Source: Massilia sp. WG5 (lineage in GTDB: Bacteria; Pseudomonadota; Gammaproteobacteria; Burkholderiales; Burkholderiaceae_D). Taken from it: a stretch of DNA of 64,000 nt. Numbering within the stretch: position 1 is the first letter of the stretch; every line of letters begins with the position of its first letter. This document shows positions 10,418-31,848 of the stretch, one piece after another. Both the position numbers and the translations under genes were made by a program. The stretch lies in NCBI RefSeq assembly GCF_001412595.2, contig NZ_CP012640.2, forward strand, positions 496,001 to 560,000. The letters run 5' to 3'. Below the pieces are notes generated by a model. It was not told where the DNA came from and ran no database searches. It saw only the letters and a list, made by a program, of their open reading frames with translations.

Positions 10418-10446
10418 TTGACATTTCGTGGGACTAATCCTACATT
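10418..10446 (+). promoter_or_regulatory. Sigma70-type promoter with 16-bp palindromic operator
   Basis: TTGACA (10418-10423) and TACATT (10441-10446) are separated by 17 bases. The palindrome GTGGGACTAATCCTAC (10428-10443) fills the spacer and touches the -10 box. It sits 29 bases before ATG 10475 of the hybrid kinase. The same arrangement recurs at 25392-25420 (minus) and, weaker, at 17796-17825. Confidence 0.7.
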
Positions 10447-10474
10447 GCGAGGATCACCATTCCTCGGACACCGC

Positions 10475-12808
10475 ATGGACCACGCGCCCGCCGCCATGAA
10501 CTTCGCGATTCCCGCCCGGGGCCGCGTCCTGTTCGTCTGCGAGCGTCCGGACGACGATCCGGCCGTGGCCGGCGTCGCCGCCGAACTCGGCTACGAAGTG
10601 CTGCGCGTGCGCAGCGCCGACGAAGCGCTCGCCCACACCGCCGGGCCCGGGTTCGCCCTGATCCTGGCCGGCTACGGGGCCGATGCGACAGGCTTTGCCG
10701 ACGCGCTGCGGCGCCTGCGGGCGGCCTTCCCGCCGACGCCGCTGGTGGCGATCGGGCCGCCGCCTCGGGATTTCCCGGTCGAGGACCTGTACGAGGCCGG
10801 GGCGCTGTCGGTGCTGCACGAACCGCTCTCGCCGACCATCCTGCGCAGCAAGGCCCGCTTCTACCTCGACGCCTACGCCACCGCGGCCGAACGCACCCGC
10901 ACCCAGGCCGCGCTGGAGGAAACCCGGGCGCGCCTGGAATCGACCATCGCCGCCGCCGAGGTCGGGGTCTGGACCTGGGATGTCGTCGCCGACCGCGTGG
11001 CCGCCGACCGCCGCATGGCCGCCCTGTTCGGCCTGCGCCCGGAAGACGCCGAGGGGGCGCCGCTGTCCGCCTACTTCGCCGCGATCCACCCGGACGACCG
11101 CCCGGCCAGCGAAGCCCGCCTGGAAGCGACGCTGGCCAGCGGCCTGCCCTACGTCAGCACCTACCGGGTGCGCGGCCCGGATGGCGACTGGCGCTGGCTG
11201 CTGGCGCGCGGCCGGGTCCAGCGCAGCGGCGCCGGCCAGCGCATGCGCGGCGTGGTGATCGACGTCACCCTGCAAAAGCAGGCCGAGGAACGCCTGCAGG
11301 CCAGCGAGGAGCGCTACCGGACCCTGTTCGATTCGGTCGACGACGGCATCTGCGTGATCGAGATGCTGTACGACGGCGACGGCAATCCCTGCGATTACCG
11401 CTACCTCGAAACGAATCCCGCCTTCGCGATCCATACCGGGCTGTCCGATGTCCTCGGCAAGACCGTGCGCAGCCTGCTCCCCGACCACGAAAACCGCTGG
11501 TTCGAGATCTACGGCCGGGTCGCCGCGACCGGCGAAGCGGTGCGCTTCGTGGAGGAAGCCGCCGGCCTCGGACGCTGGTACGAGGTGTATGCCGCGCGGG
11601 TCGGCCCGGCCGGGAGCCGCAAGGTGGTGGTGCTGTTCAGCGACATCACCGAACGACGCCGCACCGAAGTCGAGCTGCGCCGCCTGGCCGACGACCTGGC
11701 CGAGCAGGACCGCCGCAAGACCGAGTTCCTGGCGACCCTGGCGCACGAACTGCGCAATCCGCTGGCGCCGATCCGCAGCGGCCTGCAGCTGATGCGCCGC
11801 TCCACCGGCGATCCGGCGGCGCTGGCGCGGGTGCAGGACATCATGGACCGCCAGCTCGACCACCTGGTGCACCTGGTCGACGACCTGCTCGACGTCGCCC
11901 GCATCACGCGCGGCCAGGTCGAACTCAAGCCCGAGTGGATCTCGCTCGACGAGGTGATCCAGGCCGCGGTCGACAGCAGCCTGCCGCTGATCGAGTCCTC
12001 GCGCCACCGCCTCGACCTGCGCCTGCCGGCCGAGCCGCTGCAGTTGCTCGCCGACCCGACCCGCCTGACCCAGGTGGTCAGCAACCTGCTCAACAACGCC
12101 GCCAAGTACACCCCACGCGGCGGCGCGATCGTGGTGGCGGCCGAACGCGACGGCGACAATGCCGTGATCGTGGTGTCGGACAACGGCATCGGGATTCCGC
12201 CCGAACAGCTCGAATCGGTGTTCCAGATGTTCACCCAGGTCCCGCATCCGACCCAGCGCAGCCACGGCGGCCTGGGGATCGGCCTGTCGCTGGTGCGCAG
12301 CCTGGTCGAACTGCACGGCGGGACCATCACGGCCGCCAGCGCCGGGATCGACGCCGGCAGCGTGTTCACGGTGCGGTTGCCGCTGGCGGGCAAGGACAGT
12401 CCGGCGCCGCCGCCAGCGGCGCGCGCGACCGCGCCCGTGCGGCAGGCCGACCTGCGCCTGCTGGTGGTGGACGACAACCGCGACGCCGCCGAGACCCTGG
12501 CGGCCCTGCTCGGCGCGCTCGGCCACACGGCGCCGGTCGCGGCCGACGGTCACCAGGCCCTGCGCATGATCGCCAGCCTGCGTCCGCAGCTGGTGTTCCT
12601 CGACATCGGCATGCCCGGCATGTCCGGCTACGAAGTGGCGCAAGCGGTGCGCGCCGATCCGCGCCTGGACGGGGTGCGGCTGGTGGCCCTGACCGGCTGG
12701 GGCGGCGAGGCCGACCGGGCGCGCAGCGCCGAAGCGGGCTTCGACGCCCACCTCACCAAGCCGGCCACGGTGGCGGCGATCGAGGAAACGCTGGCGCGCC
12801 TGACCTGA
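10475..12808 (+). CDS. Hybrid sensor histidine kinase: pseudo-receiver, PAS, PAS, HisKA, HATPase, receiver
   Basis: A 777-residue cytoplasmic hybrid kinase with no membrane segment. Residues about 15-130 have a receiver fold, but the phosphoacceptor position reads LILAGYG, with no Asp, so this domain is degenerate. Two PAS domains follow (about 155-270 and 285-405). HisKA carries His424 in LATLAHELRNPLAPI. The ATPase domain has N- and G-boxes (NNAAKY, SDNGIGIP, GGLGIGLSLV). The C-terminal receiver has VVDDN and Asp710 in FLDIGMPG. The start chosen is ATG 10475, just after a promoter; ATG 10496 is an alternative. The ligand of the PAS domains is unknown. Confidence 0.9.
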   Translation: MDHAPAAMNFAIPARGRVLFVCERPDDDPAVAGVAAELGYEVLRVRSADEALAHTAGPGFALILAGYGADATGFADALRRLRAAFPPTPLVAIGPPPRDFPVEDLYEAGALSVLHEPLSPTILRSKARFYLDAYATAAERTRTQAALEETRARLESTIAAAEVGVWTWDVVADRVAADRRMAALFGLRPEDAEGAPLSAYFAAIHPDDRPASEARLEATLASGLPYVSTYRVRGPDGDWRWLLARGRVQRSGAGQRMRGVVIDVTLQKQAEERLQASEERYRTLFDSVDDGICVIEMLYDGDGNPCDYRYLETNPAFAIHTGLSDVLGKTVRSLLPDHENRWFEIYGRVAATGEAVRFVEEAAGLGRWYEVYAARVGPAGSRKVVVLFSDITERRRTEVELRRLADDLAEQDRRKTEFLATLAHELRNPLAPIRSGLQLMRRSTGDPAALARVQDIMDRQLDHLVHLVDDLLDVARITRGQVELKPEWISLDEVIQAAVDSSLPLIESSRHRLDLRLPAEPLQLLADPTRLTQVVSNLLNNAAKYTPRGGAIVVAAERDGDNAVIVVSDNGIGIPPEQLESVFQMFTQVPHPTQRSHGGLGIGLSLVRSLVELHGGTITAASAGIDAGSVFTVRLPLAGKDSPAPPPAARATAPVRQADLRLLVVDDNRDAAETLAALLGALGHTAPVAADGHQALRMIASLRPQLVFLDIGMPGMSGYEVAQAVRADPRLDGVRLVALTGWGGEADRARSAEAGFDAHLTKPATVAAIEETLARLT

Positions 12809-12809
12809 A

Positions 12810-13231
12810 CTACCAGTCCAGGGACAGCAGGCGCTGCGCCATCCGCGGCCAGCACAGCACCGCCAGCTCGTCGCGCGTGGCCCAGCGGAAGCCGTCCATC
12901 TCGGGCGTGTCCTTGCCGGTGATATGGTGCGGGAAGAAACTGCGGCATACCAGGTCGCCGAGCTCGCACAGCTCCTCGCCCACCTCGACCTTGTACAGGT
13001 GCAGGCATTTGTCGCGCCGGTAGTCGAAGCGTCCAAGCTCGACGAAGCGCGCAGCGTCGAAGACAAGGCCCGTTTCCTCGTCCAGCTCGCGCATCGCCGC
13101 CGCCAGGGTGTCCTCGCCCGGGTCCAGCAGGCCTTTCGGGATGTCCCATTTCGCGGTGCCGGTCACGTGCCCCAGCAGCAGGCGGCCGGCGCCGTCGACG
13201 ACCAGGGTGCCGCAGGAGACGTCGATCCGCT

Positions 13232-13235
<4 letters not shown>
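12810..13235 (-). CDS. Nudix hydrolase
   Basis: A 141-residue Nudix enzyme hydrolysing a nucleoside-diphosphate-linked substrate. The full Nudix box, G-x5-E-x7-REU-x-EE-x-GU, runs from GLLDPGED to RELDEETGL (about residues 35-57). The start ATG 13235 has GGAG upstream and overlaps the stop of the large hybrid kinase (ATGA, 13232-13235). It is therefore translationally coupled to that kinase. Length and context do not identify the substrate; dNTP, NADH or diadenosine polyphosphates are all possible. Confidence 0.88.
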
Positions 13236-16552
<3,317 letters not shown>

Positions 16553-16678
16553 GCAGGAAATGGACGATGCAATTAAAGCAATGTATGCCTGACGCTTCCG
16601 AAAGTCAATTGTGCGCACCGTCGCGCCGCGCGCCCGCAAACTACGGCGGGTGATGTTGCACCCAACTGGAGCGTGTTG

Positions 16679-17791
16679 ATGAGTTTTCCCTACCTGGCGC
16701 CCCTGCGCCGGTTTTCCTTCCTCGGCAATTCCCTCGAAGACTGGACCGTCGCCCTGATCGTGGCCGTACTGGCGACCGCCGCGATGGCCTTCGTGCGCTC
16801 GCTGGTGCTGCGCCGCCTGGCGGCGACCTCGGCCCGCACCGACACCCGGATCGACGACCTGGTCGTCAAGATGCTGTCGAAGACCTACATGCTGTTCATC
16901 GTCGCCTTCGGCGTGTATTTCGGCAGCACCTTCCTCGCACTCGACCGCGCGCGCGACCTGCTGGTGTCGCGGATCGCGGTGACGGCCCTGCTGTTCCAGC
17001 TGGCCGTATGGGGCGACGTCGGCCTGCGCGCCTGGCGCGACCAGCTGCACATGGCCCAGGACGGCGCGCGGCGCAATTCCAGCGCCATCCTGGGTTTCAT
17101 CCTGCGGCTCACCTTGTGGACCATCGTGGTGCTGATGGTGCTGGATAACTTTGGCGTGAATATCACCGCCCTGGTGGCCAGCCTGGGCGTGGGCGGCATC
17201 GCGGTGGCGCTGGCGGTCCAGAACATCCTCGGCGACCTGTTCGCCTCCCTCTCGATCACCCTCGACAAACCGTTCGAGATCGGCGACTTCATCATCGTCG
17301 GCGAGGTCCTCGGCTCGGTCGAGCACATCGGCCTGAAGACGACCCGGGTGCGCGGCCTGGGTGGCGAGCAGGTGGTGTTCTCGAACGGCGACCTGCTGAA
17401 AAGCCGGATCCACAACCACAAGCGGATGGAGACCCGCCGCGTGGCCTTCGTGCTGCGCATCGCCTACGGCACCAGCGAGGAGCTGCTGTGCCGGGTGCCG
17501 CGCATCATCCGCGAGATCATCGCGGCGAAGCCGAACATCGACTTCGAACGCGCCCATTTCATGCAGTGGGGCGAATGGTCGCTGAATTTCGAGGTCGTCT
17601 ACCACTTCCGCAGCCCGGACTACGTCCTGCACATGGACGCCCAGCAGGACATCTTCCTGGAGATCTACCGCCGCTTCGAGCAGGAAGGCATCCGCTTCGC
17701 CCACCCGCTATCGATCGTCAAGCTGGCCGACCCGCCGGGCGCCTTGCAGGCCGCCTCGGGCGGGCCGCCGGGGCCGGCCTGGCGGCACTGA
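16679..17791 (+). CDS. MscS-family mechanosensitive ion channel
   Basis: A 370-residue inner-membrane channel that releases solutes on hypo-osmotic shock. Hydrophobic segments lie at about 20-40, 60-80, 95-115 and 140-160. The pore helix TM3 and beta domain are conserved: VASLGVGGIAVALAVQNILG, then GDLFASLSITLDKPFEIGDF. The soluble C-terminal domain follows. The start is ATG 16679, with TGGAG upstream; an in-frame GTG at 16673 is possible. A second, shorter-tailed paralogue lies at 38265. It runs in the same direction as the KGG stress gene but is separated from it by that gene's promoter. Confidence 0.9.
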   Translation: MSFPYLAPLRRFSFLGNSLEDWTVALIVAVLATAAMAFVRSLVLRRLAATSARTDTRIDDLVVKMLSKTYMLFIVAFGVYFGSTFLALDRARDLLVSRIAVTALLFQLAVWGDVGLRAWRDQLHMAQDGARRNSSAILGFILRLTLWTIVVLMVLDNFGVNITALVASLGVGGIAVALAVQNILGDLFASLSITLDKPFEIGDFIIVGEVLGSVEHIGLKTTRVRGLGGEQVVFSNGDLLKSRIHNHKRMETRRVAFVLRIAYGTSEELLCRVPRIIREIIAAKPNIDFERAHFMQWGEWSLNFEVVYHFRSPDYVLHMDAQQDIFLEIYRRFEQEGIRFAHPLSIVKLADPPGALQAASGGPPGPAWRH

Positions 17792-17795
17792 AGTG

Positions 17796-17825
17796 TTGCA
17801 GGCTGAGCCGGACTCATCCTACAGA
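17796..17825 (+). promoter_or_regulatory. Promoter with weaker copy of the palindromic operator
   Basis: TTGCAG (17796-17801) and TACAGA (17820-17825) are 18 bases apart. GCCGGACTCATCCTAC (17807-17822) resembles the palindromes at 10428 and 25395: the right half ATCCTAC is exact and the core GGACT is shared. It lies 107 bases before the KGG stress gene start. Confidence 0.5.
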
Positions 17826-17852
17826 GCGCCCAAAGGATGTCCTATACCCGGG

Positions 17853-17871
17853 CTTATGCGTGACGCATAAG
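17853..17871 (+). other. Perfect hairpin in the leader of the KGG gene
   Basis: CTTATGCG (17853-17860), a TGA loop and CGCATAAG (17864-17871) form a perfect 8-bp stem in the untranslated leader. No T-run follows, so it is not a simple terminator. It could be an operator dyad or an RNA structure. Confidence 0.5.
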
Positions 17872-17932
17872 ATGGATCCAGCTCCTCGACACGGAGGAAC
17901 GCATGGCAACCATTCATTAAAGGAGAATGATC

Positions 17933-18334
17933 ATGGCACAAAACAACCAACAGAACGGCAACAACGGCAACCGCGGTTTCGCAGGCATGGACCCGCAAAA
18001 GCAGCGTGAAATCGCCTCCGAAGGCGGCAAGGCCGCACACGCTTCGGGCAATGCCCACGAGTTCAACTCGGAAGAAGCGCGCCGCGCCGGCTCGATGAGC
18101 CACAAGAACGACGGCAACCAGCAGTCGGGCGGGAATAATGCCGGTAACAGCGGCAACACCCGCGGCGGCTCGCCGGAGCAGCACGCCCGCGCCGGCGCGC
18201 AAAGCCACAAGAACGACGGCAACCAGCAGTCGGGCGGGAATAATGCCGGTAACAGCGGCAACACCCGCGGCGGCTCGCCGGAGCAGCATGCCCGCGCAGG
18301 CTCGCAGAGCCACAAGAACGACAACAAGCGCTGA
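17933..18334 (+). CDS. KGG-repeat stress-induced protein
   Basis: A 133-residue, very hydrophilic Gly/Asn/Gln/Ser-rich protein of the stress-induced KGG family, similar to E. coli YciG. The opening block FAGMDPQKQREIASEGGKAAH is the family signature; RRAGSMSH, HARAGAQSH and HARAGSQSH are further motif copies. It is cytoplasmic and probably disordered. The start is ATG 17933, 7 bases after AGGAG; ATG 17927 is too close to that site. A 35-residue unit is duplicated (18104-18313). A terminator follows. Its expression is likely stress-linked: the leader holds a palindrome-containing promoter and a hairpin. Confidence 0.85.
   Translation: MAQNNQQNGNNGNRGFAGMDPQKQREIASEGGKAAHASGNAHEFNSEEARRAGSMSHKNDGNQQSGGNNAGNSGNTRGGSPEQHARAGAQSHKNDGNQQSGGNNAGNSGNTRGGSPEQHARAGSQSHKNDNKR
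18104..18313 (+). repeat. Near-identical 105-bp tandem duplication inside the KGG gene
   Basis: Copies at 18104-18208 and 18209-18313 differ at about four bases, all in the last quarter. Each encodes 35 residues from KNDGNQQSGG to the Ser-His pair. The first 75 or so bases are identical, including synonymous positions, so duplication or gene conversion is recent. Confidence 0.9.
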
Positions 18335-18362
18335 CCGGCGCCTGGTTTAGTTCTTTCATCGG

Positions 18363-18393
18363 CTGCCGGCATCGTCCGGCAGTTTTCGTTTTA
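18363..18393 (+). terminator. Rho-independent terminator of the KGG gene
   Basis: CTGCCGG (18363-18369) pairs with CCGGCAG (18376-18382) and is followed by TTTTCGTTTT. It starts 29 bases after the KGG stop. Confidence 0.85.
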
Positions 18394-19876
<1,483 letters not shown>

Positions 19877-19927
19877 GCGCCGGCGTAGCCGAGCGATCGA
19901 CGTGCGCGCCTGCCGGCGACCGCGCGT

Positions 19928-19965
19928 CGATCCGCCGGGCGGCGATCCGCCGGGCGGCGATCCGC
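19928..19965. repeat. Short 15-bp tandem repeat, 2.5 copies
   Basis: The unit CGATCCGCCGGGCGG repeats at 19928 and 19943, with a partial third copy at 19958. It ends directly at TATACT (19966-19971), a good -10 box 9 bases before the metallophosphoesterase start. Confidence 0.8.
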
Positions 19966-19980
19966 TATACTGGCCGGATC

Positions 19981-20820
19981 ATGCGTATTCAGCTATTTTC
20001 TGACCTGCACCTCGAGCGCGATCCCGCTTTCCAGCCCCTCATCCATCCTGGCACCGACGTCATCGTGCTGGCCGGGGACATCGGCTCCTACCAGGCGCGC
20101 TCGCGCCTGCAGGACGACGATTTCGGCCTGGCGCGCTTCGCGCCTCGCCATACCGGCGCACCGGCCAAGGTACTGTACGTCCCCGGCAACCACGAATTCG
20201 ACGGCCTCGAATACGACGACGCCTACGAGCGCCTGCGCCGCGTCTGCGACTATCTCGGCATCGCCTGGCTCGACCGCGAAAGCATCGTCCTCGACGGCGT
20301 GCGCTTCATCGGCAGCACGCTGTGGAGCGACTTCGACGCCGTCGCCGGCCAGGAACGGGATTTGACGAAGCAGCTGCAGGCGCGCGGCAAGGCCTTCCGG
20401 GCCGCCAACTACTACCTGAGCAAGAACACCACCTTCCGCGGCGGCGAGCCGGTGCTGGCCGAGCAGCAGCGCGCCATGTCGCTGGCCTGCCAGGACTGGC
20501 TGCGCAGCGCCCTCGCCATTCCCTTCGACGGACCGACCGTGGTCGTGACCCATTACGCGCCCAGCCTGCGCAGCGCCGACCCGCGCTACGGCGTCACACC
20601 CGGCACCGCCGGCTTCTGCAATTCCATGGACGAGCTGATTCCCTGGGCCGACCTGTGGATGCACGGCCACCTGCACTGCACCAACGACTATGTGGTCGAG
20701 GGCGAGCTCGGCGGCCGGCCGCGCAGCTGCCGCGTGGTCGCCAATCCGCTCGGGTATGCGAACAAGGGGGAGCAGGAAGCTTTCCGGCCCGAGCTCGTTA
20801 TCGAGATCGGGACTGCCTGA
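19981..20820 (+). CDS. Calcineurin-like metallophosphoesterase
   Basis: A 279-residue cytoplasmic metallophosphoesterase. Metal ligands are visible in FSDLHLE (D-x-H), VLAGDIG, VPGNHEFDG, VVVTHYAPS and MHGHLH, giving the complete binuclear-site set. The start ATG 19981 opens directly on strand one (MRIQLFSDLHLE). A -10-like TATACT lies at 19966-19971, so the leader would be very short. The substrate is unknown; the family includes nucleotide, peptide-linked and phosphodiester hydrolases. Confidence 0.85.
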   Translation: MRIQLFSDLHLERDPAFQPLIHPGTDVIVLAGDIGSYQARSRLQDDDFGLARFAPRHTGAPAKVLYVPGNHEFDGLEYDDAYERLRRVCDYLGIAWLDRESIVLDGVRFIGSTLWSDFDAVAGQERDLTKQLQARGKAFRAANYYLSKNTTFRGGEPVLAEQQRAMSLACQDWLRSALAIPFDGPTVVVTHYAPSLRSADPRYGVTPGTAGFCNSMDELIPWADLWMHGHLHCTNDYVVEGELGGRPRSCRVVANPLGYANKGEQEAFRPELVIEIGTA

Positions 20821-20832
20821 CGCAGCGCCTGC

Positions 20833-21051
20833 TTACATGCCGAGCACCCTGACGAGGGTGAAGGCGAGGAGCCCGACGCCCAGCAGCGACAGCACGAAGA
20901 CCGCGGCCAGCTTGCCGGCCGCGCGCAGCACTGCTTGCTTCTCCTTCCCCTTCTTCATCTCCTGGTCGTAATGCCACTTGACGGCGTAGAACATGCCCGT
21001 GCCTAACACAAGAAACTTGAAGGTCACGAAGACGATTGGGATCCAGTCCAT
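20833..21051 (-). CDS. Small two-TM membrane protein
   Basis: A 72-residue protein with two hydrophobic helices (about 3-22 and 48-70) joined by a charged loop (YDQEMKKGKEKQ). I recognise no family. The ATG at 21051 begins directly on the first helix; no clear Shine-Dalgarno is visible. Open frame upstream overlaps the divergent MocR gene and is not membrane-like. It is divergent from that regulator, an arrangement in which MocR-type factors often control the neighbour. Confidence 0.6.
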   Translation of the reverse strand: MDWIPIVFVTFKFLVLGTGMFYAVKWHYDQEMKKGKEKQAVLRAAGKLAAVFVLSLLGVGLLAFTLVRVLGM

Positions 21052-21172
21052 TATTTGATTTGCCGAGTGCAGATGTGAGAAGAGAAACGCCAGCGAACGC
21101 CATGCAAGGATGGTGCCGCTGCACGTCCTGAAGCATACTACGCGAAAAGCAATATCCATACATCGAGACAAA

Positions 21173-22570
21173 ATGTCCCAGTTGAAAACCATACAAGCCG
21201 AGCACCCGCCAGTCTGGCCGCCGCGACTGGCCGTGAACGGCGGGCCACGTTTCTTGCAGATTGCGGACGCCTTGCAGGCGGCGGTGACGGACGGCTCGCT
21301 GAAACCGGGCGACCGCCTGCCGCCGCAGCGCCAGTTGGCGGCACAGCTGGGCGTCGACCTGACGACGATCACGCGCGGCTACGACGAAGCCAGGCGCCGC
21401 AAGCTGCTGGAGGGCCGCGGCGCCCGCGGCACTTATGTCGCGGCGCCGAAAGTCGAACTGAGCGCGATCCTCGACCTGAGCATGAATACGCCGCCGCCGC
21501 CGGATGGCGTCGACTTCGACGACATGCTGAAACAGGGTCTGTCCCAGGTCCTGATGCGGGCGGACAATGAATTACTGATGACTTACCATCTTGGCGGAGG
21601 AAGCGACGCCGACCGCAAGGCCGGCGCCAGATGGCTGGAACCGATGTTCGGACAGCTGGATGCACGGCAGCTGGTCGTCTGTCCGGGTGCGCAGGCGGCG
21701 ATTGCCGCCCTGATCCTTGCGCTGACGGCGCCCGGCGACGTGATCCTGGCGGAGCCAACGACCTATCCCGGCTTGCGTGACGCAGCGACCCAACTCGGCC
21801 GGCGCATCATTGCGGTAGAAACGGACAGGCACGGGATGGCGCCCGAGATGCTCGAGGAAGCCTGCCGCCGGCACAAGCCCGCGCTGGTCTACCTGAATCC
21901 GACATTACAGAACCCGACCGCCGCCACCATGCCGGAACGCCGGCGCAAGGAGCTGGCCGGCATCGCGAAGCGCCGCAATGTACGCATCGTCGAGGACGAT
22001 CCCTACTGGCTACTTGCCGACGCTCCGCCCCCGCCGGTCGCCACCTTCGCCCCGCAGCAGGTGGTCTACGTCTCGACCCTGTCGAAATGCCTGACGCCCG
22101 GCTTGCGAGTCGCCTTCGTGCTCCTGCGCGACCCGCAGGAACGCGAACGTTTCCTGATCGCGCTGAGGTCGTTCGCACTGATGGCCGCCCCGCTGACGGC
22201 CGCACTGGCCACGCAGTGGATCCTCGACGGATCGGCCGGCGGATTGATGGAAGGCGTACGCAAGGAGGCGCGCCTGCGCCACCGGATGGCCCGCGATATC
22301 TTGGCGGGGCGCTACCGCGGCGCCGGAGACAGCCTGCATGTGTGGCTCGAGCTGCCGGCCTATTGGCGCTCTTCGCAGCTCGCGCGTGCAGCCGAGGCCG
22401 AAGGCATCGCAGTCACGCCGGCCGAGGCCTTCGCAACCGGCAGCGCATCCGTGAATGCGATCCGGATCTCCCTGGGCAGCATCCAGGACCGCGGACGCTT
22501 GCAGGCGGGCCTGCAGCGCCTGTCGCAACTGCTTGCGCGGCGGCCCGAGTCGCCCGAGTCTTATTCGTAA
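21173..22570 (+). CDS. MocR-type transcriptional regulator (GntR wHTH + aminotransferase fold)
   Basis: A 465-residue fusion. The N-terminal GntR winged helix spans about 20-90 (LKPGDRLPPQRQLAAQLGVD, then the DLTTITRGYDEARRRKLLEG recognition region). The rest is an aminotransferase class I/II-like fold, with the PLP-binding lysine in STLSKCLTPGLR and the aspartate/tyrosine region IVEDDPYWLL. Such proteins use PLP or amino-acid adducts as effectors. The start is ATG 21173 (MSQLKTIQ); the frame opens upstream at 21110 but that part is not domain-like. Its last 10 bases overlap the convergent LolC-type gene. Confidence 0.88.
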   Translation: MSQLKTIQAEHPPVWPPRLAVNGGPRFLQIADALQAAVTDGSLKPGDRLPPQRQLAAQLGVDLTTITRGYDEARRRKLLEGRGARGTYVAAPKVELSAILDLSMNTPPPPDGVDFDDMLKQGLSQVLMRADNELLMTYHLGGGSDADRKAGARWLEPMFGQLDARQLVVCPGAQAAIAALILALTAPGDVILAEPTTYPGLRDAATQLGRRIIAVETDRHGMAPEMLEEACRRHKPALVYLNPTLQNPTAATMPERRRKELAGIAKRRNVRIVEDDPYWLLADAPPPPVATFAPQQVVYVSTLSKCLTPGLRVAFVLLRDPQERERFLIALRSFALMAAPLTAALATQWILDGSAGGLMEGVRKEARLRHRMARDILAGRYRGAGDSLHVWLELPAYWRSSQLARAAEAEGIAVTPAEAFATGSASVNAIRISLGSIQDRGRLQAGLQRLSQLLARRPESPESYS

Positions 22571-23832
22571 CGCAGCGCGGCTGCCGGCTGCAGGCGGGCC
22601 GCCGACCAGCTCGGATACAGCGTGGCCAGGAAGGCCAGCACCACCGCCACGCCGCCGATGCGGCCGACGTCGGTCCATTGCAGGTCGCTCGGCACTTCGC
22701 TGATCAGGTAGATGTCCTTGGCCAGGAACTGCACGCCGAACAGGTGTTCGATGGCCGGCACGATGACGCCGACGTTCAGCGCCACCAGCACGCCGAGGGC
22801 GACACCCAGCAGCGCGCCCATCACCCCGACCAGGGTCCCCTGGATCACGAAGATCTGCATGACCGATCGCGGCGAAGCGCCCAGGGTACGGAGGATCGCG
22901 ATGTCGGCCTGCTTGTCGCGCACCGTCATCACCAGGGTCGAGACCAGGTTGAATGCGGCCACCGCGATGATCATGGTGAGGATCACGAACATCATGCGCT
23001 TCTGCGACTGCACGGCGGCGAACCAGGTCGAGTTCACGCGGGTCCAGTCGCGCAGCAGGAAGCGTTCGTCCATGCCGCGCGCCAGCTCCACGGCCACGCG
23101 CGGCGCCGCATACATGTCGGCCAGGCGCAGGCGCACGCCGGACGGTCCCGCCAGGCCCTGCAGGGAGATCGCATCGTCGATGTGGACGAAGGCCAGGGCC
23201 GAGTCGAACTGGTAATTCCCGGAGTCGAAGACGTCGGCCACGGTGAAGACCCGCTGGCGGGTCGAGATCTGTCCCGGCTGGCCGGGCTGGCCGGATGCGG
23301 CCACCAGCAGGCGCACCTTGTCGCCGGCCTTGACGTCGAGCGCGCGCGCCAGCTCGCTGCCCAGCACCACGTTCTGCGAGCCCGGGCGCAGCGCCGCAAG
23401 GTTATGCGCATGGGTCTGGCCCGCGATGTCCGACACCTTGAGTTCGGCCTCGGGCAGCACGCCGCGGATCACGACCGGCTTCATGCTGTCTTCGCGCAGT
23501 ACCATGCCCTGCAGTTCGGCGAAGGGCGCGGCGGCCTTGACTTCGGGATTCTGCAGCGCCTGCCGTTCGACCGTGCGCCACTCGGGCATGGCGCCGTCGG
23601 CGGCCAGTACCTCGACGTGGGCCAGCACCGAGAGCATGCGCGCGGTGACCTCCTTCTCGAAGCCGTTCATCACGGACAGGACGACGATCAGGGCAGCGAC
23701 CCCGAGGGCGATACCGGCCACGGAGATCAGGGAAATGAAGGACAGGAAGCGGTTGCGGCTGGCGCGCTTGGCGGCGCGGGTGTAGCGCAGGCCGATCAGC
23801 CACTCGTAAGGCAGACGGTGCAGGATACTCAT
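22561..23832 (-). CDS. Lipoprotein-releasing ABC permease, LolC/LolE family
   Basis: A 423-residue inner-membrane permease of the MacB/LolC fold that extracts lipoproteins for delivery to LolA. It has an N-terminal cytoplasmic segment YEWLIGLRYTRA, TM1 (FISLISVAGIALGVAALIVV), a large periplasmic domain (about 60-265), and three C-terminal TMs with RTLGASPRSVMQIF, the ATPase-contact region. The start is ATG 23832. The partner ATPase gene lolD, usually directly downstream, is absent; the convergent MocR gene occupies that place. It is isolated from the upstream glycosyltransferase by a terminator. Confidence 0.88.
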   Translation of the reverse strand: MSILHRLPYEWLIGLRYTRAAKRASRNRFLSFISLISVAGIALGVAALIVVLSVMNGFEKEVTARMLSVLAHVEVLAADGAMPEWRTVERQALQNPEVKAAAPFAELQGMVLREDSMKPVVIRGVLPEAELKVSDIAGQTHAHNLAALRPGSQNVVLGSELARALDVKAGDKVRLLVAASGQPGQPGQISTRQRVFTVADVFDSGNYQFDSALAFVHIDDAISLQGLAGPSGVRLRLADMYAAPRVAVELARGMDERFLLRDWTRVNSTWFAAVQSQKRMMFVILTMIIAVAAFNLVSTLVMTVRDKQADIAILRTLGASPRSVMQIFVIQGTLVGVMGALLGVALGVLVALNVGVIVPAIEHLFGVQFLAKDIYLISEVPSDLQWTDVGRIGGVAVVLAFLATLYPSWSAARLQPAAALRYE

Positions 23833-23847
23833 CCCGTAATTTTGCCA

Positions 23848-23891
23848 TAAAAACAAAAATCCGCCCACGCATTGCTGCGGGGCGGATTTTT
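23848..23891 (-). terminator. Strong terminator after the glycosyltransferase gene
   Basis: AAAAATCCGCCC (23855-23866) and GGGCGGATTTTT (23880-23891) form a perfect 12-bp inverted repeat with a 13-base loop, followed on the minus strand by TTTGTTTTT. It lies 17 bases past the glycosyltransferase stop and separates it from the LolC-type gene. Confidence 0.88.
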
Positions 23892-23907
23892 CCGGGTACC
23901 GGCGCGC

Positions 23908-25164
23908 TTATTCGGCGGCCTGGGCCTTGACCGGCTGCGCGTCGATGGCGACGTTCTGCGCGGCCTGCTTGTGCGCAGCGCTGAGCGGCAGCGGGCTGAC
24001 CTTGCCGGCGCCGGCTTCGGCGATATCGGCGATGTTGGAGGCATCGGCGCTCAGGCGCTGGGCGCGGTTGCCCGGCTCGGTCGTCTGGATCAGCTGGTGC
24101 ATCGCATTGGCGGTCTTGTCCCACGAGGTGTTGGCCACGACCGCGCGCATGCGCTCGGCCAGCGCGAGCTTCTGTTCCGGGCTCGCGTCCAGCATGCGCT
24201 CGCAGGCGGCGATGAACTCGGCCGGCGTCTCGGCGATCGCGACCACGTCGCCGTAGGGCACCTTGACGTCGGTGATCGGGGTGCTGACCGACGGCAGTTC
24301 CGCGGCCATGTACTCCAGCACCTTGGTCGGGCTGATGAACTTGGTCGACTCGTTCAGTGCGAACGGCAGCAGGCAGACGTCCCAGCCGGCCAGGAACTGC
24401 GGCAGCTCTTCATAGGTGCGCTGGCCCATGTAGTGGATGTTGGCGGCCTTCGGCAGGTGCGCCGGATCGATCTTCACGACCGGGCCGACCAGCACGATCT
24501 GCCATTCCGGACGGGCGGCGGCGACTTCACGGATCAGGTCGATGTCGAAGCGCTCGTCGATCACGCCGTAGAAGCCCAGGCGCGGACCCGGGATGCCGGC
24601 CTGGTCCGGGTGGCTGTGCGACGGGTCGCGCGCCTGCTGGAAGTGCTGCGCGTCGACGCTGCTCGAGAAGCAGTGGGCGTTGGCGTGGCGATCCTTCTTC
24701 GAGTTGTACAGGCTCGGACCGCCGGTGAAGCACAGGTCGGCGATGTTCAGCAGTGCGCTTTCACGCTGCACCAGTTGCTTCGGCGGGTTCTTGAACGCGG
24801 CCAGCTCGTCCATGCAGTCGTAGACGACCAGCGAGGGTTCGAAGCTTTGCAGCAGCGGCAGGGCCATCGGGGTGTAGAACCAGACGACCGGCTTCTCGCC
24901 TTCGGGCACGAGGTCGGCCAGCAGGGTCTGCAGGGTCGGGATCTGGTCGTCATGGAAGCCCGGCGCATGGATCGGGGTATGCGGCTGGCACACGGTGATG
25001 TTCGGCGCCACGGCCGTCTTCTTCAGGTGCGCCTGCCCTTCTTGGTACACCGGTTCCTCGACGATCAGGATTCGGTAGTGTTTGGCCATGCGGGTCATCA
25101 GGTGCTGGGGACGCTGAAAGACAAAGTCCCAACGCAGGTGGCAAAACACGATAAGGGTTGGCAT
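23908..25164 (-). CDS. Glycosyltransferase, GT-B fold (group 1 type)
   Basis: A 418-residue cytoplasmic glycosyltransferase. The N-terminus FCHLRWDFVFQRPQHLMTRM is the opening seen in glycosyltransferases that read 'W-FVWQRPQ'. The C-terminal nucleotide-sugar domain has LGFYGVIDERFDIDLI, IVLVGPV, and the donor-binding KFISPTKVLEYMAAELPSVST (about residues 275-300). The tail after 375 is Ala/Gln-rich and probably disordered. The start ATG 25164 has AAGGAA upstream. It appears to be transcribed from a promoter about 220 bases upstream (25392-25420). A role in exopolysaccharide or other surface sugar assembly is likely; the exact sugar is unknown. Confidence 0.87.
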   Translation of the reverse strand: MPTLIVFCHLRWDFVFQRPQHLMTRMAKHYRILIVEEPVYQEGQAHLKKTAVAPNITVCQPHTPIHAPGFHDDQIPTLQTLLADLVPEGEKPVVWFYTPMALPLLQSFEPSLVVYDCMDELAAFKNPPKQLVQRESALLNIADLCFTGGPSLYNSKKDRHANAHCFSSSVDAQHFQQARDPSHSHPDQAGIPGPRLGFYGVIDERFDIDLIREVAAARPEWQIVLVGPVVKIDPAHLPKAANIHYMGQRTYEELPQFLAGWDVCLLPFALNESTKFISPTKVLEYMAAELPSVSTPITDVKVPYGDVVAIAETPAEFIAACERMLDASPEQKLALAERMRAVVANTSWDKTANAMHQLIQTTEPGNRAQRLSADASNIADIAEAGAGKVSPLPLSAAHKQAAQNVAIDAQPVKAQAAE

Positions 25165-25391
25165 TTTTCAAGTTCCTTTCGCCTTGGGGCGTTCTAGTTG
25201 ATCTGGGATTCAACCGGGCGGATTCACTGGGGATGCGGTCGCATGCACCAGGAATCAACGTGCCGGACCCGAGAATCGTAACATGCAAAATTCTCAAGAT
25301 TTTCATTTACCACTTGCAATATTAACAACGGGTAATGAAATTGGACGCGGAACACATTTGCGCCCTAGGGAAAATGTGACTCTTGGTTAAA

Positions 25392-25420
25392 AATGTAGGT
25401 TTAGTCCTACGATTATTCAA
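25392..25420 (-). promoter_or_regulatory. Sigma70-type promoter with 16-bp palindromic operator
   Basis: Read on the minus strand: TTGAAT (25420-25415), 17 bases, TACATT (25397-25392), with the palindrome GTAGGACTAAACCTAC at 25410-25395. This is the same layout, spacing and core as the promoter at 10418-10446. It points at the glycosyltransferase gene. Confidence 0.7.
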
Positions 25421-25548
25421 GAAAAAACACTACGAAAATGCATCGTGCGCTCAAGCGTGCGCGGGGTGTTAAGTGGAGAACGGAAGCGGGAAGAAAGTGT
25501 GTTTACGTGGGAGGAATTGACGCCTGAACGCGTTGGCTGCGTAAACAC

Positions 25549-31209: not shown

Positions 31210-31848
31210 TCATCCTGCGAGCCCGTTGCGCAGTGCGTACCGGATCAGGGCAGCGTTCGAGGACAGCCCCAGCTTGCGGAAGATGCGGATCCGGTAGGTG
31301 TTGACGGAGCTGACCGTGATGCCGAGTTCGGCCGCGACCTGCTTGACCTGCAGGCCGGCCCCGATCAGCGCCACGATCTCGGCCTCGCGCGGCGTCAGCA
31401 GCCGGTGCGGGGCCGCCGCCGGCGGATTGCTGGCTTCCCGCGCCAGCAGTTCGGCGACCCGCGGACCGATCCAGGGCGCGCCGGTGGCCGCCTGGCGCAG
31501 GGCCTGCACCAGTTCCGCCGTGGCGGTATTCTTCGACACATAACCGAAAGCGCCAGCGCGCAGGGCCGCGAGTGCGTATCGTTCTTCGGGGTGCATGCTC
31601 AGCATGACCACGCGCAGCGCGGGAAAGTGGCGGCGCAGTTCCACCAGGCCGTCGAGGCCGTCGTAGTCGGGCAGGCTCACGTCCAGCACCACCACGTCCG
31701 GCCGAACCTGGGCCACCAGCGCGATCGCCTGCTGCAGGTCGCCCGCCTCGCCCACCACTTTCAGGTCGGCGCAGTGGCGCACGATCTTCTTGACGCCCTC
31801 GCGGATGAGTTCATGGTCGTCGGCGATGACTAGCCTGATCAATGCCAT
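31210..31848 (-). CDS. NarL/FixJ-family response regulator
   Basis: A 212-residue DNA-binding response regulator. The receiver (about 5-120) has IADDHELI, phosphoacceptor Asp55 in VVVLDVSLPDYDG, and the switch Ser/Thr and lysine in YVSKN. A LuxR-type helix-turn-helix follows: LTPREAEIVALIGAGLQVKQ, then ELGITVSSVNTYRIRIFRKL (about 145-195). No cognate kinase is adjacent, although two hybrid kinases and the receiver-EAL protein are nearby. The start is ATG 31848; the AAGGA upstream is unusually close. It is divergent from the DUF481 gene. Confidence 0.9.
   Translation of the reverse strand: MALIRLVIADDHELIREGVKKIVRHCADLKVVGEAGDLQQAIALVAQVRPDVVVLDVSLPDYDGLDGLVELRRHFPALRVVMLSMHPEERYALAALRAGAFGYVSKNTATAELVQALRQAATGAPWIGPRVAELLAREASNPPAAAPHRLLTPREAEIVALIGAGLQVKQVAAELGITVSSVNTYRIRIFRKLGLSSNAALIRYALRNGLAG

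Follow-up and report, generated by a model that had tools for sequence, protein, structure and literature searches.

A window of 64,000 nucleotides from Massilia sp. WG5 (contig NZ_CP012640.2, positions 496,001 to 560,000) was analysed, in which three genes, coding for a hybrid histidine kinase, a KGG stress-induced protein and a GT-B glycosyltransferase, are each preceded by a similar inverted repeat (Table 1). An earlier note on this DNA had described the three sites as a single promoter/operator design, with the palindrome lying on top of the -10 box. The strings and spacings that it reported are all present: between the -35-like hexamer and the palindrome there are 4, 5 and 4 bases at the kinase, KGG and glycosyltransferase genes respectively. 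The feature common to the three loci is the palindrome GTAGGA-N4-TCCTAC, and not a promoter design.

Table 1. Features of the three loci and of the response regulator gene in the window. Scores are out of the 12 fixed letters of GTAGGA-N4-TCCTAC.
Feature	Position	Strand	Remark
Sigma-70-like promoter TTGACA-N17-TACATT of kinase gene	10418..10446	+	Conserved; -10 overlaps right half-site
Operator-like palindrome GTGGGACTAATCCTAC upstream of hybrid kinase	10428..10443	+	11/12
PAS-PAS-HisKA-HATPase-REC hybrid histidine kinase	10475..12808	+	Pfam
Putative operator GCCGGACTCATCCTAC upstream of KGG gene	17807..17822	+	Right half TCCTAC strict, left half relaxed
Conserved TCCTATACC, 17 bp past the KGG operator	17840..17848	+	Possible -10 region (TATACC) and/or extra half-site
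KGG stress-induced protein	17933..18334	+	Pfam PF10685
GT-B glycosyltransferase, TuaH-like but under that family's cut-off	23908..25164	-	Pfam, NCBIfam
Putative operator GTAGGACTAAACCTAC upstream of glycosyltransferase	25395..25410	-	Left half invariant in relatives, right half imperfect
CGTAG, extra half-site-like element 24 nt upstream of glycosyltransferase operator	25430..25434	-
NarL/FixJ-type response regulator	31210..31848	-	Judged unlikely as general binder of the motif

Statistical support from inside the window is modest, and only suggestive. A search with GTAGGANNNNTCCTAC allowing up to two mismatches gave exactly three matches, where 0.48 were expected and 3 of 100 shuffles reached three. 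A degenerate pattern derived from the sites gave nine matches with up to three mismatches (1.44 expected; none of 100 shuffles reached nine), although this pattern was fitted to the very sites on which it was scored.

Distribution of the palindrome

The whole genome (6.2 Mb) contains three exact copies of the motif and seven with one mismatch. All ten are intergenic, as judged with a simple codon-score gene caller written for this analysis, while only 8% of the window is noncoding. The reversed pattern, also a palindrome and equal in composition, served as control. With up to two mismatches allowed there is no enrichment in this genome, the motif being found 88 times and the control 368 times, and raw mismatch counts were therefore dropped as evidence. 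Because they do not exceed the control, the reality of the motif has to rest on placement and conservation.

Both are strong in the genus. The 61 genomes, including this one, contain 183 exact copies compared to 17 of the control, and these occur in 60 of the 61; one genome (G030) has none. All 73 distinct exact sites that were retrieved from the genus, which are part of its exact copies, are intergenic, as are 40 of 41 retrieved from other genera. The earlier note had proposed looking for further copies between genes, both in this genome and in related Oxalobacteraceae, and such copies are indeed there. An exact copy is present in 59 of 145 sampled family genomes. In a sample of the class it is present in 31 of 232 genomes, again including this one, and outside this genome there are 36 copies against 20 of the control, a small excess that does not support a motif general to the class. 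Given these low counts, strong enrichment is a trait of the Massilia group.

The genes next to exact sites include a divergently transcribed OmpR-type regulator and DUF697-like pair (the DUF697 match is just below cut-off), PEP-CTERM proteins, an S30AE protein, an RsbR-like STAS protein, CsbD, a methyladenine glycosylase and a uridine kinase-family protein, together with genes that, by their sequences, look like those of chemotaxis receptors. On one contig (G018:C45; loci L035 and L072) a pair of exact sites has inverted copies of one chemotaxis receptor gene on its flanks, which could be either a true inverted duplication or an artefact of assembly. The one-mismatch sites of the Massilia sp. 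WG5 genome adjoin genes for a T2SSE/MshEN ATPase, a glycosyl hydrolase and a TonB plug protein, and some of them face the 3' end of the neighbouring gene, for example DUF1501. Counting start codons within a limit of 400 bp (151 cases), the distance from an exact site is 11-374 bp with a median of 167, a spread that rules out one fixed promoter distance.

It is concluded from the motif itself, its intergenic placement, its conservation and its neighbours, all of which are directly observed, that the palindrome is a genuine and conserved site, which in relatives lies close to many genes with stress, surface or signalling roles. It forms an intergenic inverted repeat conserved upstream of orthologous genes, except that at the kinase this fails beyond the closest relatives.

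The three loci in relatives

At the KGG gene, 20 stretches from relatives were retrieved. The operator scores 9-10 of 12 in all 19 relatives with a called KGG gene, so that the site which had earlier been called the weaker of the three is real. The right half, TCCTAC, is invariant in the 20 loci (own included), and TCCTAT at +17 is equally so. The left half varies, reading GCCGGA, GACAGA, GACGGA and similar. A TTG is found at the proposed -35 register in only 2 of the 20. If TATACC is instead the -10 region, the centre of the operator would lie at about -40. In a genome of another genus (G130; L121:2112-2519) an exact palindrome is found just 3' of a KGG gene.

For the glycosyltransferase and the kinase, counts refer to the best 30 hits of each search. 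A near-palindrome precedes the glycosyltransferase gene in all 30 loci, scoring 9 (2 loci), 10 (5) or 11 (23), where 5 of 600 shuffles reach 10, and its distance to the start codon is 222-238 bp. The left half reads GTAGGA throughout, and the right half never begins with T. An extra CGTAG is present at offset 24 in 29 of the 30. The promoter elements are much less constant, with TTGA at the -35 register in 4 of 30 and TACATT at the -10 register in 5 of 30. Between operator and start codon there is also a conserved AT-rich leader block (window 25271-25340, minus strand; aligned in loci L186-L215), whose consensus in the relatives is around TTGCAATGCATAAATGAAAATATT.

These two loci bear on the suggestion that the palindrome is an RNA hairpin, with a 6-bp stem and a 4-nt loop, in leader transcripts. 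A perfect palindrome can form such a stem, and several copies are located 11-30 nt before a start codon. The stem is however not maintained: the innermost pair is broken at the glycosyltransferase in 30 of 30 loci, and the left half at the KGG gene pairs incompletely with the invariant right half. Many copies are moreover situated between divergent genes, and an Rfam search at gathering scores of 19 site loci returned only rRNA and tRNA. The hairpin is consequently rejected as very improbable.

The kinase gene behaves differently. Its palindrome scores 10-11 in only 4 of 30 orthologue loci, own included, and these are the four best hits; the remaining 26 score 7-9, as shuffles do. The promoter by contrast is well conserved: 27 of 30 loci have TTGACN-N16..18-TA[CG]A[GT]T upstream, against a background of 0.018 per 340 nt. 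The best explanation is that the kinase site is a lineage-restricted addition onto a conserved promoter. That the near-palindrome is a chance overlay on this promoter, whose -10 region reads CTCCTACAG/T, falls somewhat short of an even chance: the promoter is kept in 27 loci and the palindrome only in the four closest, and yet the left halves in those loci (GTGGGA, GAGGGA, GTCGGA) resemble the relaxed left halves at the crp junction described below, where GTCGGA itself occurs.

Since the promoter is kept at the kinase and the operator at the other two genes, there is no single design. The -35/-10 register is conserved at the kinase only. As a promoter, the proposal holds for the kinase and not for the glycosyltransferase or KGG genes; as an operator, it holds for these two in every locus and not for the kinase beyond 4 of 30.

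The junction between RR-A and a CRP/FNR-like gene

The best conserved copy of the motif, and the place where it recurs across the family, is at the junction between a NarL/FixJ-type response regulator gene, here called RR-A (C1:1913567-1914208 in this genome), and a CRP/FNR-like gene (crp in what follows). In the Massilia sp. WG5 genome (C1:1912980-1915390, L318) RR-A is followed by the highly conserved CRP/FNR-like gene, and the gene preceding it looks like one for a universal stress protein. The junction was analysed in the best 80 of 365 RR-A loci (92-100% identity), 79 of which could be examined. They come from Massilia, Telluria, Duganella, Pseudoduganella, Rugamonas, Janthinobacterium, one Herbaspirillum strain and some unclassified genomes.

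With relaxed scoring the junction site reaches 12 in 39 loci, 11 in 39 and 10 in one, so that 78 of 79 score at least 11; the strict pattern gives 12 of 12 in 21. In the control stretch upstream of RR-A, 76 of the 79 do not exceed 9. On the side of the CRP-like gene the half-site reads TCCTAC in 74 of 79, and the opposite half is GTAGGA (21), GTAAGA (20), TTAGGA (14), GTCAGA (9), GTCGGA (9) or other (6). Such an asymmetry between a strict and a relaxed half also fits the KGG site and, if it is functional, the kinase site. An extra CCTAC is found 8-26 nt beyond the site in 78 loci, and an ATTCAG-like block in all 79. No -10 box could be fixed from the alignments at either the crp or the DUF697 promoter. 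A constant extra half-site at every target was ruled out by an offset test on 132 distinct exact sites: once the 40 assigned to the crp type are set aside, no offset dominates among the remaining 92, with never more than five sharing one.

The site follows the CRP-like gene further out. In 15 more distant CRP-like junctions 12 score at least 11 and one scores 10, and in another sample 6 of 6 CRP-like orthologues carry the site (10-12 of 12). Among 11 weaker CRP-like homologues ten score 9 or less and one scores 10.

Candidate binding proteins

We suggest, with a probability of roughly 0.6, that in Massilia and neighbouring genera GTAGGA-N4-TCCTAC serves as the operator of GacA/UvrY-like NarL/FixJ response regulators, with RR-A as the lead candidate. 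Both steps, that the binder would be a response regulator of this family and that it would be RR-A, are drawn from sequence. RR-A consists of a receiver domain and a LuxR/GerE helix-turn-helix over its full length, and its best NCBIfam model is UvrY/SirA/GacA, aligned over residues 1-209. Exact copies of the motif are present in 30 of 33 family genomes that have RR-A at an identity of at least 92%; where the identity is 79-86% the figure is 11 of 28, and where it is 62-78% it is 6 of 30. The GacA upstream activating sequence (UAS) of Pseudomonas rsmY/rsmZ is TGTAAG-N6-CTTACA (PMC4950607). The junction site in this genome matches it at 11 of 12 positions, and the 79 junction loci at 7-11. The earlier note had guessed at a NarL/FixJ-style palindrome recalling GacA, and in style and likeness it is supported, unlike in its promoter part.

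Further evidence comes from a congener (G044) in which an exact site stands 17 bp before the first start codon of an operon of MASE3 kinase, second kinase and NarL-type regulator (G044:C106:2000-11000, L316), the helix of this regulator, KTVSTHKTRILQKM, being nearly equal to that of RR-A. In genome G173 an exact site precedes a gene that by eye resembles this MASE3 kinase, and the stretch leads to a homologue 53% identical to RR-A.

Several observations weigh against the assignment. RR-A scores 170.3 bits and does not reach the UvrY/SirA/GacA cut-off of 280, and the agreement of the three window sites (kinase, KGG and glycosyltransferase) with the GacA UAS is limited to 8, 7 and 9 of 12 positions. 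None of the 30 loci has a perfect operator at the glycosyltransferase. At the junction, three of the 79 control stretches upstream of RR-A reach 11, two of the 15 distant junctions (L330 and L340) score only 9, and six loci with RR-A but no CRP-like neighbour have a best nearby score of 8-10, which indicates that the site belongs to the crp promoter. Finally, G044 has no RR-A (its best match is 53% identical) and neither do seven sampled genomes of another genus, g26 (no match better than E 6e-61), and all of these keep exact sites. RR-A therefore cannot be the sole binder. The CRP-like gene is also missing, from G044 and from the five g26 genomes tested.

The same genomes favour the proposal that the main binder is another GacA-like paralogue, of the type found at locus L103 (near 2145463 on C1 in this genome) or at L106, and that RR-A is secondary or irrelevant. 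For both types the best NCBIfam model is again UvrY/SirA/GacA, below cut-off, and the L103 type has the best such score, 212.8 bits. It is also the only NarL-type regulator seen, by eye, in all four motif-bearing genomes inspected (own, G044, G100 and G183); G100, of genus g41, has just three GerE proteins, including RR-A and an L103-type protein. The L103 gene in this genome however has no motif site beside it, the most conserved site adjoins RR-A instead, and homologues similar to L103 (at the level of similarity only) are found in genera with few or no exact sites. On this evidence the paralogue is unlikely to be the main binder, although it is the strongest competitor to RR-A.

A binder from another family altogether, such as a TetR, GntR or MerR repressor or activator, is less probable still. 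A palindrome this short does not identify the family of its binder, and its overlap with the spacer and -10 box of the kinase promoter is what a repressor site would show. The half-site, the spacing and the A/G interchange nevertheless resemble the GacA UAS, the strongest site adjoins a NarL-type regulator gene, and the site before the NarL-type operon in G044 is placed as if for autoregulation.

The window has its own NarL-type regulator, encoded from 31210, which the earlier note had mentioned while showing no link. It is unlikely to be the general binder: an orthologue (at least 53% identity) is present in 13 of 145 family genomes, and is missing from congeners G016, G041, G044, G047 and G049, all of which have exact sites.

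Two observations concern CsbD genes. In genus g26 (L118, L119, L154, L155) exact palindromes are located 3' of a CsbD gene in genomes that lack RR-A, and in G183 a NarL-type regulator (L307) is encoded about 3.4 kb from a CsbD-linked exact palindrome.

Proposed mechanism

If the preferred assignment to GacA-like response regulators is right, a phosphorylated regulator dimer would bind the palindrome, with one half strict, and at some genes a further half-site 20-24 bp away would assist. The regulated set would comprise stress, envelope-polysaccharide, PEP-CTERM surface, chemotaxis and regulatory genes, with the glycosyltransferase and KGG genes as its members within the window. A position of the KGG operator near -40, like that of the CrbR site (PMC5715377), would point to activation there; at the kinase, the overlap with the -10 box would point to repression.

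More tentatively, and we regard this as doubtful though worth stating, the sites may make up a global lifestyle and stress regulon of the Oxalobacteraceae, in which GacA-like regulators act directly on a large number of promoters through GTAGGA-N4-TCCTAC, with an extra half-site two helical turns away at some genes. The pair of RR-A and the CRP/FNR-like protein would be its hub, with no evident small-RNA relay, and a single ancient site before the CRP-like gene would have been the origin from which the set of operators expanded in the Massilia group.

Three look-alike promoters have led to a testable genus-wide regulon with candidate regulators. From the set of sites, regulation can also be predicted for genes with little annotation, among them the DUF697-like and PEP-CTERM genes. 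Should the regulator be GacA-like, many stress and surface genes would be under direct control, unlike the small-RNA route of Pseudomonas.

Comparison with known systems

A response-regulator operator is, as a kind, already known. This operator, its regulon and its hub in Massilia, Duganella, Janthinobacterium and relatives were not described in the open full-text literature searched, which was covered by titles and abstract starts in partial listings, with subscription journals mostly outside it.

The RcsB and EvgA boxes have similar TA-A/G-GA half-sites, but RR-A is far below the cut-offs of the models for those proteins. The half-site in the heptad repeats of BvgA differs from the GTAGGA motif in its letters and their order. 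At Bordetella fhaB, BvgA binds cooperatively to an inverted repeat and to weaker secondary sites nearer the promoter (PMC2225982), and these secondary sites recall the extra half-sites at the crp, KGG and glycosyltransferase genes, although BvgA controls a virulence regulon.

The LuxR-family response regulator CrbR requires for activation an imperfect inverted repeat, the ACTU motif, at -52 to -36, which is close to the position that the KGG operator would have. CrbR serves acetate genes in Gammaproteobacteria, and the likeness concerns layout and position (PMC5715377).

The closest comparison is with GacA. Its system differs in that Rfam at gathering scores found no Rsm/Csr small RNA in the 19 site loci searched. 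The half-site in the Massilia group is mostly GTAGGA, and the sites precede many protein genes. The palindromic frame is nevertheless the same as that of the GacA UAS (PMC4950607), the length is nearly equal and the half-site is of the form GTARG; at 20 of the 79 junction loci, GTAGGA is replaced by GTAAGA.

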